From positions 620,001 through 684,000 of the forward strand of contig JAHBWW010000003.1 in NCBI GenBank assembly GCA_019636795.1: a DNA stretch of 64,000 bases, given 5' to 3'. The notes beneath the pieces were generated by a model. The model searched no databases. It saw nothing but the letters and a program-made list of their open reading frames with translations, and had not been told where the DNA came from. Position 1 is the first letter of the stretch; the number at the start of each line of letters is the position of its first letter. A program made the translations under genes and the position numbers. Shown here one piece after another: positions 8,247 through 50,941 of this stretch. The stretch comes from Phycisphaeraceae bacterium. GTDB taxonomy: Bacteria; Planctomycetota; Phycisphaerae; Phycisphaerales; UBA1924.

Positions 8247-8435
8247 GGTCGATACGAGGCGGAGTTTTGTCGCTACGAGATGACAATTGCGCGATGCGAG
8301 TTCATGTTGTGTCGATGCGAGATGAAGTTGTGTCGATTCAACCTCAGGTTTCATCGATGCGAGTTCATGTTTCATCGATACAAGTTCATGTTTTGTCGAT
8401 GCGCGATGATGTTTTGTCGATCAATTCTGACCAAA
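8247..8435. repeat. 21-bp imperfect tandem repeat array, locus 1 (9 units)
   Basis: Nine consecutive units keep an exact 21-base period (8247, 8268, 8289, 8310, 8331, 8352, 8373, 8394, 8415). Typical units are TGTCGATGCGAGATGAAGTTG and relatives that share TCGATGCGAG-TTCATGTT. Units diverge at several positions but show no insertion or deletion. Because 21 is a multiple of three, every frame reads as heptapeptides: on the minus strand around S-T-K-H-E-L-A, on the plus strand around C-R-C-E-M-K-L. I see no start site, gene or terminator here. The rest of 8024-8650 holds nothing recognisable. Confidence 0.85.
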
Positions 8436-8650
8436 AATCGCGCTTATCACGACGTTGTCGCCTGCGGCGTGCTCGGGAATCGACGAATTTCGGCCCTGTC
8501 ACGCGAATAAACCAGCCCGGACGCACCCAGACTCATGTTTGGCTGCTGCACGGAATACCGAACAGAACCCGACGCCGCCGGGGGCTGTGACCATGGCCTT
8601 GCATGGCCACGAGCAGTGGCATAACCGAGGCAAGGGCACCCAGCGCCCGC

Positions 8651-10306
8651 TCACCGCGGCGTCACGCCGAGAATCGGGTCCTCGGGCGCGACAACCTCAG
8701 GCGCTTGCGGGGCGCGCAGCCGCAGCGCGAGCGCCTCGGCCTGACGCGCATAGTCGATCGACTCGCCCAGGATCCGCGCCGCCTCCTGCGGGGCGTGAAA
8801 CCCCTTCGAGTTTTCGCTGCTCACAAAGTCCAGCCGCCACATCGACTTCCGCTGCAGGTCGTAGACCTCGGACAGATCACTCTCGCTTACGCCCGAGAGT
8901 TTGGCCTCCATGATCGCATCGACCATCGACACCATCGCCGCCGCCGCCCGTTCCATCAACGCCTTGTGCCGCGTCTGGATCGTCGCCACCCGCTCGCGCA
9001 GTTCGGCCTCGGACACCTTGTGACACGTCTGGCAGGCGTTGTTGATGTTCTCCATCGGGCTGCGCACGTTGTGATTGCTCAGTTTCATGGCGCCTACCCG
9101 CTCGTAGGGCATGTGGCAATCGGCGCAGCTCACCCCCGCCCGCGCGTGCACGCCCTGGTTCCACAGCTCGAACTCCGGGTGCTGCGCCTTGTAGAGCGCC
9201 GCGCCCGTCTCGGCGTGCACGTAGTCCTTGAACGCCGTACCGTCGGGAAACGTCAACTCATCCCAGTACCGCTCCATGTCCTCGACCCTGAGCCCGAAGC
9301 CCCACGGGAACGTCAGCGTGTCCTGCGTCGCGCAGTAATACTCGACATGGCACTGCCCGCACGCGAACGAACGCATCTCGGCGCGCGTCGCGAGCTTGTT
9401 GGGGTCGTACGGCTCCTTGCGGTCGCCGCGCCGCCACCGCTCGACGCTGGGCATCGCGTGCACCTGTCCATCGCCGGCCGCCAGTTTGGCCATCCCCAGC
9501 ATGAACCCGGGACGCGTGATGCGCACCGCCATCGTCTTGGGATCATGGCAGTCGATGCAGCTGACCGGGTGAGCCTCGCTCATCGCAAAGTGCCCCTCGG
9601 GCATCGCCTTGGGATCAAACCCGCCCACCGGCGGCTCGCCGAACACCGCCGGACTGCCCGGCGCTGTGCCGTCGGGCATCTGCGTGAGCATCGCCAGCAC
9701 CTCGTGATAGGGCTTGCGGCTGAGCACCTCGAAACCCTTGATCACCGCCTCCATGTTGAACTCGGCCGCGAGCGCCGCCTCGTCGCTGGGCAGCCCCAGC
9801 GCGTCGAGCCCCGCCTTGCGGTAGAGCACCGTCGTCGAAGCGTGGCAGTGCAGACACGCCCCGGCCTGCTGCCGCTGGTTGACGCGCTCGGTCACGACCT
9901 GGTCGTAGAGCATGTAGGCGTGCCCGCGCGCTTCGCGGTAGTCGATGCTGAAGGCGTAGCCCGCATAGAGCCGCTTGAGCCACGGACTTTCGTCGAGCTT
10001 GCTCTGGGGCATCGCGCTCGAGCCGCCGTAGAACGTGTCGCCGGCCGTCATCGTGTACTGATCGAAGTGGTGCGGCCAGTTGAGCCCCCAGGGCGCGGGG
10101 TCCGTGCTCGTCTCGTTGAGATCGACCACGCGGAAATACGGCGAACGCGCGTCCTGCTTGTGCTCGAACATCGTCACCAGCACGAAGACCACGATCAGCG
10201 TCGTGAGCAGCGTCACGCCGAAGATCGAGCCGAGCAGCAGAAACTGACGCGCGCGGCGGCTGGAACTGCGGGGCGCGGATGGAGGAGTCGGTGCAGTCGT
10301 CGTCAT
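8651..10306 (-). CDS. nrfA: Pentaheme cytochrome c nitrite reductase, ammonia-forming (NrfA)
   Basis: 551 residues. NrfA reduces nitrite to ammonium with six electrons. Five heme motifs are present: CLHCH (151-155), CIDCH (250-254), CGQCH (316-320), CADCH (394-398) and CQTCH (425-429). Residues expected at the active site are there: Arg in REARGHA (~127), Tyr323 in CGQCHVEYY and His376 in KAQHPEFE. The heme-1 site, CxxCK in E. coli, is CxxCH here, as in some epsilon-proteobacterial enzymes. The N-terminus is a long uncleaved-looking membrane segment (~22-46) rather than a simple signal peptide. It follows nrfH by 30 bases and ccsBA further upstream, so one ccsBA-nrfH-nrfA unit is likely. Confidence 0.95.
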   Translation of the reverse strand: MTTTAPTPPSAPRSSSRRARQFLLLGSIFGVTLLTTLIVVFVLVTMFEHKQDARSPYFRVVDLNETSTDPAPWGLNWPHHFDQYTMTAGDTFYGGSSAMPQSKLDESPWLKRLYAGYAFSIDYREARGHAYMLYDQVVTERVNQRQQAGACLHCHASTTVLYRKAGLDALGLPSDEAALAAEFNMEAVIKGFEVLSRKPYHEVLAMLTQMPDGTAPGSPAVFGEPPVGGFDPKAMPEGHFAMSEAHPVSCIDCHDPKTMAVRITRPGFMLGMAKLAAGDGQVHAMPSVERWRRGDRKEPYDPNKLATRAEMRSFACGQCHVEYYCATQDTLTFPWGFGLRVEDMERYWDELTFPDGTAFKDYVHAETGAALYKAQHPEFELWNQGVHARAGVSCADCHMPYERVGAMKLSNHNVRSPMENINNACQTCHKVSEAELRERVATIQTRHKALMERAAAAMVSMVDAIMEAKLSGVSESDLSEVYDLQRKSMWRLDFVSSENSKGFHAPQEAARILGESIDYARQAEALALRLRAPQAPEVVAPEDPILGVTPR

Positions 10307-17929: not shown

Positions 17930-19075
17930 TCAGTTCCCTTCATACCAGGCGTCCAGCGTCGCCGCGCAGGCCCCGCGATACAGCACCTTCAGGAGCTCCG
18001 GCGGCACAGAGCGCCCGACCAGTCTCGAGGCCGACAGCGGCCCGGCTCCGGCAGGGTCCAGTTTCATCAGGTCAGGATCGGCAATGTTCGACGGGCCGTC
18101 GTGCGCGCTCTCAAACATCGTCCGCATGGCCCAGTAGCGGCTGGCATACAGGTCAAAGGCGTCGGCCTCGCTGGCCGCAAGGCTCGCCCCGTACCGTCCG
18201 TCGCCGCCCGAGCCCAGGTGATCTTCGCTCGCGACAATGTCTGAGCCGAACAGCACGCGCCCGCGATAGCGCTCAAAGAACGCGAGCAACTCGGCCCGCG
18301 GGTGGCGGCTCAGTTCGCGCACCATCCACCGCGTCGCGCTCGTGTCGATGATGAGGTTGGGCCAGCGGTCGAGCAGCCCGCTCAACCGCGACAGATCCTC
18401 GGGGCTCCCGGCCATGTGCGCCGCCAGGCAGCCATTGGGCCAGGCCCGCAGGACGCGCTCGAACGGCGCATAGTGGTCGCTCTTGCGCCCGTAGCGCCCC
18501 GCATCGGCGTAATCGGTGGCAAACCAGGTATCCGGGTCGGCCACATGCACCATCATCATCATGCCCAGCTGCTCCCCGCGCCGGGCCACCATCTGCCGCC
18601 AATGGCTGTCGATCGGAACGATCTCGCGGATCGGCAGCCCGGCCCGCTCGGCGTAGTCGCGAAAGCGCGGCGCGGCCCAGAGTTTGAACATCCGCGCCCC
18701 GAACTCGCCCGCCCACCGCTCAAGAGCATCGACAAACCCCGCGCGCAACGCGTGCCCCGGCTCGGCCGAGGTGTAATCGGGCACCGCGACGAAGCGCACC
18801 CGCTCGCCCAGCACCGCCCGCACCTCGGCCGCCCGATGGATCGGCGTCTGGGAGTAGAACCGCTCGATCCCGAAAGCGTCGGCAGCCGCAGCGAGGATCT
18901 CGGCCGAGCGCGGGCCGTTGATATGGACGTGGGCGTCGATGATCGGGCACACCGGCGGGCCCAGTCGCGCCGCCTCGGCGCGGTACTCGAGCCCGTGAAG
19001 ATTGGCCTGCCGCCGGGCGAGGGCCGCCGGGTCGGTCGGCACGTCCTGCGCGGGTGTGGTACGCTTGTCAGGCAT
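17930..19075 (-). CDS. Amidohydrolase-family (amidohydrolase 2, TIM-barrel) protein
   Basis: 381 residues from the ATG at 19075 (MPDKRTTPAQ); upstream codons in this frame overlap the divergent glycosyltransferase and are unlikely to be used. Metal-site features: PIIDAHVHINGP (HxH), MMMMVHVADPDTWF (His), CLAAHMAGSPEDLSRLSGLL (His) and VLFGSDIVASEDH (Asp). There is no export signal, so it is cytoplasmic. Members hydrolyse or decarboxylate cyclic or carboxylic substrates. It starts 19 bases from the start of the glycosyltransferase gene on the opposite strand, so the two promoters must overlap each other's coding regions. Confidence 0.85.
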   Translation of the reverse strand: MPDKRTTPAQDVPTDPAALARRQANLHGLEYRAEAARLGPPVCPIIDAHVHINGPRSAEILAAAADAFGIERFYSQTPIHRAAEVRAVLGERVRFVAVPDYTSAEPGHALRAGFVDALERWAGEFGARMFKLWAAPRFRDYAERAGLPIREIVPIDSHWRQMVARRGEQLGMMMMVHVADPDTWFATDYADAGRYGRKSDHYAPFERVLRAWPNGCLAAHMAGSPEDLSRLSGLLDRWPNLIIDTSATRWMVRELSRHPRAELLAFFERYRGRVLFGSDIVASEDHLGSGGDGRYGASLAASEADAFDLYASRYWAMRTMFESAHDGPSNIADPDLMKLDPAGAGPLSASRLVGRSVPPELLKVLYRGACAATLDAWYEGN

Positions 19076-19094
19076 CGCCCATCGTAGACAACCC

Positions 19095-20351
19095 ATGAGC
19101 ACACCCCGCCCCTCCGCCAACGAACCGACGCCCGAGCAGGGGCAGGGTGCGTTCAAGTTCGATCGCCAGAAACGCGACGACAAAAAAACCGGCCGCCGCC
19201 GCATCGTCCTCGCCTGCGACTGGCTCGTGAGCCGCCGGGGCGGCGAAGCGGTGCTCGAACGGCTCGCTGCGTACGCCACCACCCATCACGCCCCCGCCGC
19301 CCTGCTCACCCTCTTCGCCCGCGACATGAGCTTCGGCCCCGCCATCGACGCGCTGCCCACGATCCGCGCCCGGCTCGGCCGCCTTCCCGGCGCCTCGGGC
19401 GCCCTGCGCCGCTGGCTACTCCCGCTGTACCCGACCATGATCGCCGACCTCAACGGCTGGGTCGCCAGCCTGCACGAAGACGCCCCCGTCGATCTGCTGT
19501 TGAGCAGTTCCTCGGGCCTCATCAAGAACCTGCGCCCGCCCCCGGGCGTCAACCACCTCTGCTATTGCCACACCCCGGCGCGCTACCTGTGGAGCCAGAC
19601 CGCGGCCTATGGCCGAGGCGGGTCCAGGGGCGCCGCGCGCGGCCTCGGACTGACGCTCTTTGGCGAGCGCCTGCGGACCTTCGACCGCTCGGGCACGCGC
19701 CACGTCAGCGCATTCATCGCCAACAGCACGCACACGCGCGCCGAGATCGAACGCTGCTTCAACCGCGAAGCCCACATCGTGCCCCCGCCGGTGCGGACGG
19801 AGTTCTTCACGCCCGATGCGGCCGTCAACCGCGAAGATTTCTGGCTCATCGTCAGCGCGCTCGAACCCTACAAGCGCGTGGATCTGGCCATCGAGGCCGC
19901 GGCCCGCGCCCGCCAGAAACTGATCGTCGTCGGCGAGGGCTCGCAAGCCGGCTACCTGCGCGCCCACGCCCGCGCGATGAGCCGCAGGCACGCCGCCGGG
20001 GTCAAGGGACTTATCGAGTTCACCGGACGCATCGACGACGAGCCGCTGCGCAACCTCTACCGCCGGGCCGGTCTGTTCCTGTTCCCGCAGATCGAAGATT
20101 TCGGCATCACGGCGGTCGAAGCCCAGGCCTGCGGCTGCCCCGTCGTCGCGCGCGGGCTGGGCGGAGCCCTCGACACCGTCATCGAGGACACAACGGGAGC
20201 GCTCTTTGAAGATGATTCGGCCGAAGCACTGATCGAGGCGGCCCGCGGCATGAAGGCGAGCCACTCTGCCTGCCGCCGCAACGCCGAGCGGTTCAGCGAG
20301 CAACTCTTCGACCAGCGCATGGGCCTGCACATCGAGAGCGCGCTGGGCTAG
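19095..20351 (+). CDS. Glycosyltransferase family 4 protein
   Basis: 418 residues from the ATG at 19095 (MSTPRPSANEP). The N-terminal Rossmann half holds RRIVLACDWLVSRRGGEAVL and CYCHTPARYLW. The C-terminal GT4 half shows the hinge FWLIVSALEPYKRVDLAIEA, IVVGEGSQAGYL, IEFTGRIDDEPLRNLYRRAG and the nucleotide-sugar E-x7-E region FGITAVEAQACGCPVVARG. Similar proteins transfer mannose or related sugars in exopolysaccharide or O-antigen synthesis. The donor is not identifiable. It is single in this neighbourhood, with no other polysaccharide genes nearby. Confidence 0.9.
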   Translation: MSTPRPSANEPTPEQGQGAFKFDRQKRDDKKTGRRRIVLACDWLVSRRGGEAVLERLAAYATTHHAPAALLTLFARDMSFGPAIDALPTIRARLGRLPGASGALRRWLLPLYPTMIADLNGWVASLHEDAPVDLLLSSSSGLIKNLRPPPGVNHLCYCHTPARYLWSQTAAYGRGGSRGAARGLGLTLFGERLRTFDRSGTRHVSAFIANSTHTRAEIERCFNREAHIVPPPVRTEFFTPDAAVNREDFWLIVSALEPYKRVDLAIEAAARARQKLIVVGEGSQAGYLRAHARAMSRRHAAGVKGLIEFTGRIDDEPLRNLYRRAGLFLFPQIEDFGITAVEAQACGCPVVARGLGGALDTVIEDTTGALFEDDSAEALIEAARGMKASHSACRRNAERFSEQLFDQRMGLHIESALG

Positions 20352-20524
20352 GCACGCGACCGGGCGGACGTGGCGCCCACACAGCCAGGCCCTCGGCACC
20401 CCGAACAGAACGCTGGCGGCACAATGGAGGCGCACAAACTGGCATGGGCCGAGAAAAACCGCGTCCGGGCGCGAAGAACGCCGAGCGGACCGGGCGGTGC
20501 GCCGATCGTGCGCCTCGCCGCGTC

Positions 20525-20755
20525 CGGATATGTGCTCGCCGCGGTCATAATTCCTCTCGCCGAGTTCATAATTCCTCGCTCCGCGGCCATAATTCCGCGC
20601 GTCAAGTTGATGTTGACGCGCTCCCCGATGAAGTTGACGCGCGTCAAGTTCATAATTCCTCTCGCCGCGGTCATAATTCCGCGCGTCAAGTTGAAGTTGA
20701 CGCGCTCCGCGATGAAGTTGACGCGCTCCCCGATGGCCGCGACGCCCGCCCGCAT
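20525..20755. repeat. 21-bp tandem repeat array, locus 2 (11 units)
   Basis: Eleven units in strict 21-base register from 20525 (20546, 20567, 20588 ... 20735). Two unit types alternate: CATAATTCCGCGCGTCAAGTT-like and GAAGTTGACGCGCTCCCCGAT-like. They are partly reverse complements (GCGCGTCAA and TTGACGCGC), giving hairpins and a perfect palindrome TTGACGCGCGTCAA at 20634-20647. The minus strand reads as heptads such as L-T-R-G-I-M-T and G-E-R-V-N-F-I. Unit sequence differs from locus 1 although the period is the same. The rest of 20352-20818 shows no gene. Confidence 0.88.
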
Positions 20756-20818: not shown

Positions 20819-21604
20819 TCAATCGCTCGGCACCGCCTCAGGCCCGGCCGCCTCCAGCTCCAGCCCGACCGCCTCGGGCAGCACCTCGAACTCCAGATGG
20901 AAGTGCTGCGGCTCAAGAAAAGTGCCCGGAATCGCCCGCTGCCACGGATCGAGAATGTGCCTGAGCAGGGCGTAGGGCACCCGCGCCTTCATCGAGATCG
21001 ACCCGTCCGCCTCGCGCACCAGTTCCGTCACGCCGTCGGTCGGCTTGCGGCCCGAGAGCGCCCCCAGCCGCGTGTCGTAGCCCGGCCGGATGCGCCCGTT
21101 GAGCGTATCGGACGCATCGGAGGTCAGAAAAAGATTGAACGCGTCCGACGAGATCTGGCACGACTTCATCGCCTCGAGCGCGTACTTGACATGCGCCACC
21201 ACCGTGCCGCGCCGCGGCAGCGCGGGCTGGTTCATCACCACGCCGCTGAGCGTCACCTCGATCATCGAATCGGCCGCGATCTGGTCGAAAAACGCCCGCG
21301 TCGGGTCGAGTTTATAAAACCCCACACGCACCACCGCCCCCTGCGGATGCCCGGCCCCCTTGGCCAGTCGAGCGCCCCCCACCGCTACAAAACCCTCCAC
21401 ATTCGCGCCCATGGCGACACGCTCGGCGTCGGAGGCGTAGGGCAAATCCTTTTCGAACTTCACCATCCTGCCATCGGCCTTCGTCCACGCGATGCTGGCC
21501 TGCGGGACCTTCTCGGTGTCGACCAGCAGGAGCGGAGGTGAATCCTGCAACCCCAATGCAGACGCTGCGAACAAGAGCACGACGGCATAGACGGCGATCT
21601 TCAT
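20819..21604 (-). CDS. Secreted hypothetical protein
   Basis: 261 residues with a signal peptide (MKIAVYAVVLLFAASALG, cleavage near LQD). The mature part is soluble, with beta-rich stretches (GAVVRVGFYKLDPTRAFFDQ, MIEVTLSGVVMNQPALPRRG), a single cysteine and an acidic Ala/Glu-rich end. I recognise no family. It is divergent from the choice-of-anchor-B gene, whose -35 element lies ~40 bases upstream of this start, so the two share a regulatory region. Downstream lies the 21-bp array. Confidence 0.75.
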   Translation of the reverse strand: MKIAVYAVVLLFAASALGLQDSPPLLLVDTEKVPQASIAWTKADGRMVKFEKDLPYASDAERVAMGANVEGFVAVGGARLAKGAGHPQGAVVRVGFYKLDPTRAFFDQIAADSMIEVTLSGVVMNQPALPRRGTVVAHVKYALEAMKSCQISSDAFNLFLTSDASDTLNGRIRPGYDTRLGALSGRKPTDGVTELVREADGSISMKARVPYALLRHILDPWQRAIPGTFLEPQHFHLEFEVLPEAVGLELEAAGPEAVPSD

Positions 21605-49540: not shown

Positions 49541-50941
49541 ATGCTCAGCACAAATCAGACAAATGTATCCAACGCCTCAGCCTATCTGATAATCTTGCTG
49601 CGGCTGGCCTGTGCCTTGCCCCTGGCACTGCTCTCCGTACCCGCAGCACACGCAGGTGATGAGTGCCAGCCGCAGTGGGTGACCGACTCCGCGTGCCTGC
49701 CGGGTCTCAATGGCACCGTCTACACCGCCGCAGTCTGGGATGACGGCACCGGCAAGGCTCTGTATGTCGGCGGATCCTTCACCATCGCCGGTTGCACTCA
49801 GGCCTCCAACATCGCCCGCTGGGACGGCTCATCGTGGCAGGCGCTCGGTGCCGGCATCAACTACGCCGTGGTCACCCTGAGCGTCTTCGACGATGGCTCA
49901 GGCTCGGCGCTCTACGCCGGTGGCGGCTTCTGGCAGGCAGGCCCGAGCACCGCAAACCGCATCGCCCGCTGGGACGGCTCAACATGGTCGCCCCTCGGCT
50001 CAGGCATGAACGACTGGGTCCGCTCCCTCGCGGTCTTCGACGACGGCTCGGGCCCGGCGCTCTACGCCGGCGGCAGCTTCACGCACGCAGGCGGGAGCGC
50101 GGCCAACCGCATCGCTCGCTGGGACGGCTCAACATGGTCGCCCCTCGGCTCGGGCATCAACGGCGATGTCTACGCCCTCACAGCCTTTAGCGACACCCCG
50201 ACCGGCGAGCCCGCGCTGTATGCCGGCGGCTTCTTCACTCAAGCGGGCGGCACACCGGCCAACGCCATCGCACGCTGGAACGGCTCGGCTTGGTCGCCGC
50301 TAGGGTCGGGCATGAGCAACGGCTTCGTCCTCACCCTGACAGCCTTCGACGATGGCAGCGGCGGGGGTCCGGTGCTGCATGCCGGTGGCTTCTTCACGCA
50401 CGCGGGCGGAACCACAGCCAACTCCATCGCGCGCTGGAACGGCTCAGCATGGTCGCCCCTGGCTTCGGGTATGAACGAACGGGTCCGCAGCCTGAGCGTC
50501 TTCGACGATGGCTCGGGCCCGGCGCTCTACGCAGGCGGACAGTTCACCCTCGCAGGCGGCAGCCCGGCCAACACCATCGCACGCTGGGACGGCTCGGCAT
50601 GGTCGCCGCTGGGCTCAGGGTTCAGCGGCAGCGTCAATGGAATTTTGCCCTCCGTCCGCACCCTGAGCATCTTCGACACCGGCCAAGGCCCGACGCTCTA
50701 CGCAGGCGGCACGTTTACGCAGACTGGTCAAAGCCCGGCCTACCACTTCGCCCACTGGCTGCCGCGCCCGCCCTGCCCGGCTGATCTGAACAATGACTGC
50801 GCCCTCGACTTCTTCGACGTCTCCGCTTTCCTGGCCGCATTTTCAGCTTCCGATCCGATCGCGGACTTCAACAGCGATGGCAACTTCGACTTCTTTGATG
50901 CGCTCGCATACCTCACAGCCTTCGGTGCCGGATGCCCGTGA
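49541..50941 (+). CDS. Secreted ~50-residue-repeat protein with GC-type dockerin tail
   Basis: 466 residues from the ATG at 49541, with AAGGAG 6 bases upstream. Signal peptide LLRLACALPLALLSVPAAHA. Six to seven ~50-residue repeats, each with IARWDGSTWSPLGSGM, a V-x-x-L-x-V-F-D-D-G-S-G stretch and ALYAGGSFTHAGGSAAN, probably one propeller blade each. The nucleotide copies are also very alike, suggesting recent expansion. C-terminal dockerin pair: NDCALDFFDVSAFLAAFS and SDGNFDFFDALAYLTAFG ending AGCP. Function unknown; extracellular adhesin-like or structural role possible. Confidence 0.88.
   Translation: MLSTNQTNVSNASAYLIILLRLACALPLALLSVPAAHAGDECQPQWVTDSACLPGLNGTVYTAAVWDDGTGKALYVGGSFTIAGCTQASNIARWDGSSWQALGAGINYAVVTLSVFDDGSGSALYAGGGFWQAGPSTANRIARWDGSTWSPLGSGMNDWVRSLAVFDDGSGPALYAGGSFTHAGGSAANRIARWDGSTWSPLGSGINGDVYALTAFSDTPTGEPALYAGGFFTQAGGTPANAIARWNGSAWSPLGSGMSNGFVLTLTAFDDGSGGGPVLHAGGFFTHAGGTTANSIARWNGSAWSPLASGMNERVRSLSVFDDGSGPALYAGGQFTLAGGSPANTIARWDGSAWSPLGSGFSGSVNGILPSVRTLSIFDTGQGPTLYAGGTFTQTGQSPAYHFAHWLPRPPCPADLNNDCALDFFDVSAFLAAFSASDPIADFNSDGNFDFFDALAYLTAFGAGCP

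Follow-up and report, generated by a model that had tools for sequence, protein, structure and literature searches.

The stretch of DNA analysed here, referred to as the window, is 64,000 nucleotides long and corresponds to G000:C3:620001-684000, where G000 is a 3.49-Mb genome in eight contigs. At about 20535-20740 the window contains a tandem array of 21-bp units, A2, to which no strand is assigned. On one side lies a glycosyl transferase group 1 gene (19002-20351, forward strand), identified with Pfam. On the other is an open reading frame (ORF) with no Pfam match at 1e-5 (20819-21604, reverse strand). An earlier note on this DNA had likewise placed the array between genes, which it called unrelated. 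In one gene-caller run a weak ORF was also called over the array itself (20348-20755, reverse strand, score 17). TRF and direct listing of the units agree that the 21-bp register holds strictly between about 20535 and 20740, upholding the exact 21-base period that had been claimed. The accompanying count of eleven units stands if edge units are included; nine units are clear (20542-20730), and degenerate units flank these on both sides. The units are further organised into an 84-bp higher-order repeat (4 × 21) spanning 20563-20726, for which TRF reported a 93% match and 0% indels.

A second array, A1, was recognised by period scan and unit listing at 8248-8421 (no strand assigned), beside a cytochrome c552 family gene found with Pfam (8651-10306, reverse strand). 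Its 21-bp units have a TCGAT-containing core. The best period-21 score over 80 positions in the window was 61, at A1; all other periods from 10 to 59 scored 49 or less, except period 42, which scored 57. The A1 and A2 units are unlike, and BLASTN found no match apart from the part that the two test sequences had in common. Hence, the statement in the earlier note that A2 is not a dispersed copy is correct with respect to A1. It does not hold elsewhere; a similarity search showed that window positions 20402-20648 have a copy, with 96% identity, at G000:C4:191349-191595. The match between this copy, A3, and A2 extends for about 250 bp, of which about 130 bp belong to a left flank (20402-20534, no strand assigned) that starts at CGAACAGAAC. 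The unit content of the two paralogues is not the same.

The two arrays in the window are not the only ones, a condition on which the earlier note had made its proposal depend; G000 has at least 11 period-21 arrays (A1-A11). Those outside the window were found by similarity searches, a pattern search, a positional sample and inspection around sites of the motif GAACAGAAC. They are A3 (C4:191.4k), A4 (C3:422836-423028), A5 (C5:259.5k), A6 (C2:164.7k), A7 (C4:369.6k), A8 (C3:159.7k), A9 (C3:310.5k), A10 (C3:216.7k) and A11 (C4:150.9k), the last two having been found beside GAACAGAAC. A BLAST-type comparison identified A4 as a relative of A1 at about 75-78% identity. A5 and A6 have 605 bp in common at 93% identity, and A7 shares a flank of A5 and A6 plus part of the array. 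Outside the A2/A3, A5/A6/A7 and A1/A4 groups, no close relatives of the remaining G000 arrays were seen. Judged by these comparisons, the units are private to a single array or small group.

The arrays therefore differ from REP/BIME and other dispersed palindromes. REP/BIME palindromes share a family sequence and, like the arrays, they are intergenic and present several times per genome; their palindromic character is matched in the arrays as a group, though individually only in some. Conversely, the G000 arrays divide into several groups that resemble one another little, units are specific to the array or small group, and the 21-bp register is fixed. Plasmid iterons and centromere (par) arrays are also tandem sites of about 17-22 bp at helical-turn spacing, but iterons have one sequence and adjoin a rep or par gene. 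Here there are at least 11 arrays of differing sequence, and no replication or partition gene was found among ten neighbours of six G000 arrays (A1, A2, A3, A5, A6 and A9). The ten neighbour proteins are unrelated by Pfam, and three have no match. No cas genes occur among them. With PADLOC, a generic protein kinase matched kinase models and the other nine proteins had no match. Around 36 arrays gene orientation is mixed: 7 loci are convergent, 6 and 2 are co-directional and 5 are divergent, whilst 13 overlap a called, mostly weak, ORF and 3 are at contig ends.

Relatives of G000 carry arrays with unrelated units and the same 21-bp period. Our collection comprised 44 arrays; G000 contributed 11, and the other 33 came from 14 related genomes of the same family. 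The non-redundant set numbered 39 after five near-duplicates (A3, A6, A7, G014b and G049a) had been dropped. These observations support the proposal in the earlier note that some process makes or maintains 21-bp arrays. In a pattern search, TCGAT occurred three times at 21-bp spacing in 97 of 163 family genomes, many of the 97 being single matches such as coding DNA yields. A backward-pattern control for this search was unfair, since it contains stop codons, and a search with free spacing was added. When each spacing was free between 17 and 29 bp, TCGAT triples gave 282 matches in eight genomes. Among the matches listed, which cover five genomes and G000 in part, there were ten equally spaced TCGAT runs, all of period 21; one 8-bp simple repeat (G019:C5) was likewise among the listed runs. 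The other 77 listed matches include two that belong to this 8-bp repeat, left out of the count at 24, and were equally spaced at 18 (three), 21 (two), 24 (three) or 27 bp (one). Isolated equally spaced triples are no commoner at 21 bp; runs are commoner at 21 bp.

The preference for period 21 was also seen in a positional sample of 1.2 Mb (400 kb each of G000, G144 and G024), which was scanned for periods of 8-69. The stretches were picked by position ahead of any repeat scan, and that from G000 happens to omit stretches with the arrays then known, a bias against 21. Ten arrays scored 50 or more, five of them intergenic and five over called ORFs. The five in called intergenic space had period 21 (four) or 63 (one). 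Those over ORFs, as called with a home-made gene caller, had periods of 21 (L300), 21 (L309), 30, 36 and 54. The 36-bp array may in fact be intergenic, as its ORF has a score of just 16, comparable with the weak ORF called over A2. Weaker arrays classed as intergenic had periods of 63, 33, 14 and 16. Four further weak arrays in G144 (periods 9, 15, 15 and 25) lie outside the coding/intergenic split. No strong array was present in the 400 kb from G024. The G144 sample contained six arrays of period 21 or 63, a count that excludes the clearly coding L300 and includes one weak array (score 34.6) and the ambiguous L309. By extrapolation from this sample, we infer several tens of such arrays per genome.

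Other repeats were encountered along the way. Eighteen G144 loci (within L299-L318) each have about two tandem 81-bp copies. The six that were printed presumably resemble a dockerin-type 27-residue coding motif, and we read these repeats as tandem copies of a protein motif. Similarly, we take L308:7255 to resemble leucine-rich coding sequence. In the window, large repeats of about 150-309 bp are located within an open frame at 49717-50635.

Many of the arrays have dyad symmetry. For the 11 arrays found without TCGAT, self-complementarity exceeded that of dinucleotide-preserving column shuffles (combined p 3.7e-7); this set includes two arrays found beside GAACAGAAC and is not fully independent, since six arrays share one genome. 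Individually, 6 of the 11 were below 0.05; for A2 the dyad was not significant (p 0.30). Among the other 28 arrays, 14 were below 0.05 against the dinucleotide null. An initial test for the dyad, run on 35 arrays, gave a combined p of 2e-23; we set it aside, because most of these arrays had been located through TCGAT, itself a palindromic core. Single 21-mers from the flanks, used as a control, gave 0 of 38 below 0.05, an uninformative result owing to ties. Folded as RNA, the 39 arrays exceeded column-permuted arrays, the mean z being -1.7 on one strand and -2.05 on the other, and in 20 of the 39 z fell below -2 on at least one strand. For A2 this excess was modest (z -1.4 and -1.0). In each of 12 chosen RNA structures, more than half of the pairs had one centre phase modulo 21. 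With the TCGAT block excluded, the dyad of the consensus is weak (5 of 31, combined p 0.036). Unit-by-unit covariation of the arms was not detected (p 0.25), and local compensatory hairpins were rejected on this basis. A4, A8, G014c and G159c have neither a dyad nor a folding excess, and G024b and G144e have no folding excess. Because of these results we place the dyad in the common core of the array; it does not reflect locally compensated hairpins and it is not found in all arrays.

The arrays, then, are mostly intergenic, have a period of 21 bp and array-specific units, in many cases show a dyad, and carry no coding signal. We tentatively favour, at somewhat short of even chances, the reading that A2 is a non-coding minisatellite, of a type recurring in this bacterial family, which has grown by hairpin-assisted slippage. 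A short quasi-palindrome in intergenic DNA would seed the array. A hairpin in the nascent or template strand would then cause the polymerase to re-copy about two helical turns. Subsequent slippage, or unequal exchange between units, could lengthen, shorten or reshuffle the array, giving rise to blocks of 84 bp and of the ABAB type. A step of two turns would have the advantage that slipped units keep the same helical face. Some arrays are duplicated (A2/A3, A5/A6/A7 and A1/A4), and some appear to have been copied to new sites together with one flank. No host function would be required, though one is conceivable. The mosaic, higher-order units and the partial duplications fit slippage and exchange. 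Against this, simple hairpin slippage predicts no single exact length. The lack of a significant dyad in A2, its modest folding excess and the arrays with neither feature also tell against it.

The natural reading of the period is that 21 is 2 × 10.5, or two helical turns; our tests separate none of helical geometry, a protein ruler and selection. A distinctly unlikely version is that local palindromes are copied into phased 21-bp arrays at many intergenic sites of these bacteria by an enzyme, or by a replication-repair pathway, that has a two-turn ruler, so that only the letters would be specific to the site. The usual view is that a tandem repeat can grow out of any unit that slips. Here, across a number of arrays and genomes, the period is dominant and the sequence is free. 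What sets repeat length, be it helical geometry, hairpin size or a protein ruler, becomes directly testable, and the arrays provide a natural test set for this question.

Selection for phase is the basis of an unlikely, though not negligible, alternative. The arrays would be architectural, with a DNA-binding protein of loose specificity polymerising on the DNA or bending it at palindromic sites that recur every two turns, and selection holding the 21-bp phase as the letters drift. The dyad symmetry is as this would predict, as is the strict phase despite unit divergence. For example, A8 has 155 mismatches and 0 indels over 375 bp, although the detector is biased against indels. Low indel counts could point to selection, and are suggestive only, because the detector disfavours indel-bearing arrays and the extended alignments ran into flanks. 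However, AT content showed no phasing at 21 or 10.5 bp, no site sequence is common to the arrays within a genome and the surrounding gene orientations are mixed.

It is rather improbable that the arrays are transcribed and act as hairpin RNAs, whether as terminators, mRNA stabilisers or sponges. Such a role draws on the folding data. Compared with dinucleotide shuffles, folding was better for A1 (one strand) and A2 (both strands), with z from -3.2 to -3.9, and there is the folding excess across arrays given above. Conversely, the two strands fold about equally, the arms lack local compensatory covariation and position relative to gene ends is not fixed. Rfam gave no match in 20 array loci; in the window, its matches were two tRNAs away from the arrays.

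That the arrays are part of an element able to move or duplicate, with the 11-mer CCGAACAGAAC as its marker in G000, is a decidedly doubtful explanation. The earlier note had remarked on the proximity of this sequence to both arrays. In the window it occurs only at 8558-8568, about 140 bp from A1, and at 20401-20411, about 130 bp from A2, on the forward strand in both cases (shuffle mean 0.02). The proximity holds throughout G000, where all four exact copies lie 12-165 bp from an array (A1, A2, A10 and A11). The shorter GAACAGAAC occurs 29 times in G000, compared with 13 for a backward control. On inspection of all 29 contexts, seven sites were within 600 bp of a known array. Exactly four of the 29 are preceded by CC, and all four are beside arrays. 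Since A1 and A2 came from the earlier note, and inspection of the motif's surroundings led to A10 and A11, the test proper concerns the other two CC sites, each of which had an array.

Further support for mobility comes from shared flanks. As described above, A2/A3 homology begins at CGAACAGAAC, and A5 and A6 have 605 bp in common. Moreover, arrays with differing units can share a leader-like flank, as seen for L313 (G144f left) and L311 (G144g right; 103 bp, 82%) and for L107 (G008) and L108 (G123; 183 bp, 86%). Against this, the orientation and distance of the 11-mer relative to the array are variable, and GAACAGAAC was absent within 600 bp of the relatives' 33 arrays in the flanking sequence available. 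The 11-mer is a feature of G000, perhaps the remnant of a duplicated flank. Flank alignment, for which the earlier note had called, yielded no common insertion motif general to all arrays or across genomes. Among the BLAST matches between array flanks were the duplications of the A arrays, a REP-like palindrome of dispersed type, a gene end and several shared flanks, which include one of 128 bp at both sides of G115; none of them is general. We interpret the match between G144a/b and G146b flanks as a gene end plus a terminator-like hairpin. The word TGTTCGG was within 300 bp of 12 of the 39 arrays, where about 0.12 per array was expected from the G000 and G144 samples; G000 accounts for six of the 12, including two to which GAACAGAAC had led.

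No clear IS21 helper was found in a search of G000 for the IstB type. The sequence TGAAGTTGAC in A2 may resemble IS21-type transposon ends. This candidate was tentatively set aside, as G000 gives only partial IstB-type matches. There are three partial matches to PF01695, two of them at or over the cut-off and the best scoring 31.1 bits over positions 96-194 of 238. We read them as AAA-domain cross-matches.

Several other elements were noted in array flanks. The dispersed REP-like palindrome, about 40 bp long with the core TGCATGGCCACGA / TGGTCATGGC, recurs in at least three genomes, both close to several arrays and at other places. Its sites include window positions 8578-8629, L289 (the right flank of A9), L103 (the right flank of A8) and L020 at about 8248-8317, as well as flanks of G024b, G024c and G014c. 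A few copies of palindromic GTGCCACC...GGTGGCAC repeats sit within about 4 kb beside A6 (L020 8203-8250, 8720-8870, 11049-11297 and 12235-12389). Word excesses were also present in G144 array flanks.

Since 21 is a multiple of 3, the arrays could encode peptides with a seven-residue (heptad) repeat, at seven codons per unit; we disfavour this explanation as very improbable. At least one open frame was present in 38 of 39 arrays, close to the permuted null of 35.9. Whole-array open frames numbered 145, in excess of the 99 found after permutation, 108 after dinucleotide shuffling and 86 or 74 for mutated flank-derived arrays. For consensus units the excess disappeared, with 202 of 234 frames open compared with 203.7 ± 4.2 for GC-matched flank 21-mers. 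We put the whole-array excess down to an artefact of how the nulls place variants (the mutation model), as it is missing at the unit level. Unit variation showed no codon-phase heterogeneity (p 0.70), so that an open frame is not accompanied by codon-phase constraint, and A5 has stops in all six frames. Reading TCGAT as Arg-Ser/Cys is attractive; yet it follows from the search motif, and it was rejected in view of the negative coding tests. Guide-type (CRISPR-like) arrays of short repeats and variable spacers are barely credible; some arrays, such as G024a, do keep a short core with a variable remainder, but in arrays inspected by eye the variation is mostly graded rather than split between repeat and unique spacer, and the generic protein kinase was the only defence-model match among the 10 proteins flanking six G000 arrays.

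The minisatellite reading of A2 accords with known bacterial intergenic minisatellites (VNTR), a survey of which was reportedly made by Shelenkov and colleagues in 2006. Like these, the arrays are tandem units of tens of bp in non-coding DNA, with higher-order units and partial homogenisation; about a third of the loci overlap a mostly weak ORF. The differences are that period 21 dominates across unrelated units and that many arrays have a dyad. In pepper, 21 bp is among the commonest periods of highly diverged tandem repeats, and has been tied tentatively to 2 × 10.5 bp (PMC10211496). That study concerns a eukaryotic genome and statistical detection, and bacterial arrays or palindromes do not feature in the part available. 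Heptamer repeats detected with SPADE are described, in the available part of the report, as abundant in intergenic DNA of prokaryotes and of unclear function (PMC6344855). Their period is 7, whereas our 21-bp units contain no lag-7 signal (z 0.6). PMC5274682 also belongs to this literature. In the titles and abstract openings that searches of the open-licence literature listed, 21-bp phased intergenic arrays of bacteria are unreported.

Three contigs of relatives were found to start inside a 21-bp array (L148 and L149 in G049:C25 and C44, and L147 in G154:C341). This suggests that assemblies break at the arrays and that copies are under-counted. Similar arrays occur in several phyla, for example in Phycisphaerae, Nostoc, Bacillales and Thermoanaerobaculia, with at least 119 loci when coding repeats are included; units were inspected for 80 of these 119 loci. 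Their flanks contained 40 further arrays, and 15 of these had period 21, 42 or 63, in genomes preselected for a 21-bp array and with coding and non-coding repeats pooled. Arrays of 21-bp units with a short conserved core were seen in Clostridiales and Bacillales (L178, L189, L200, L208, L209 and L212) and in cyanobacteria (L174, L177, L188, L203 and L225). Possibly, these short-core arrays of distant phyla are the same phenomenon.
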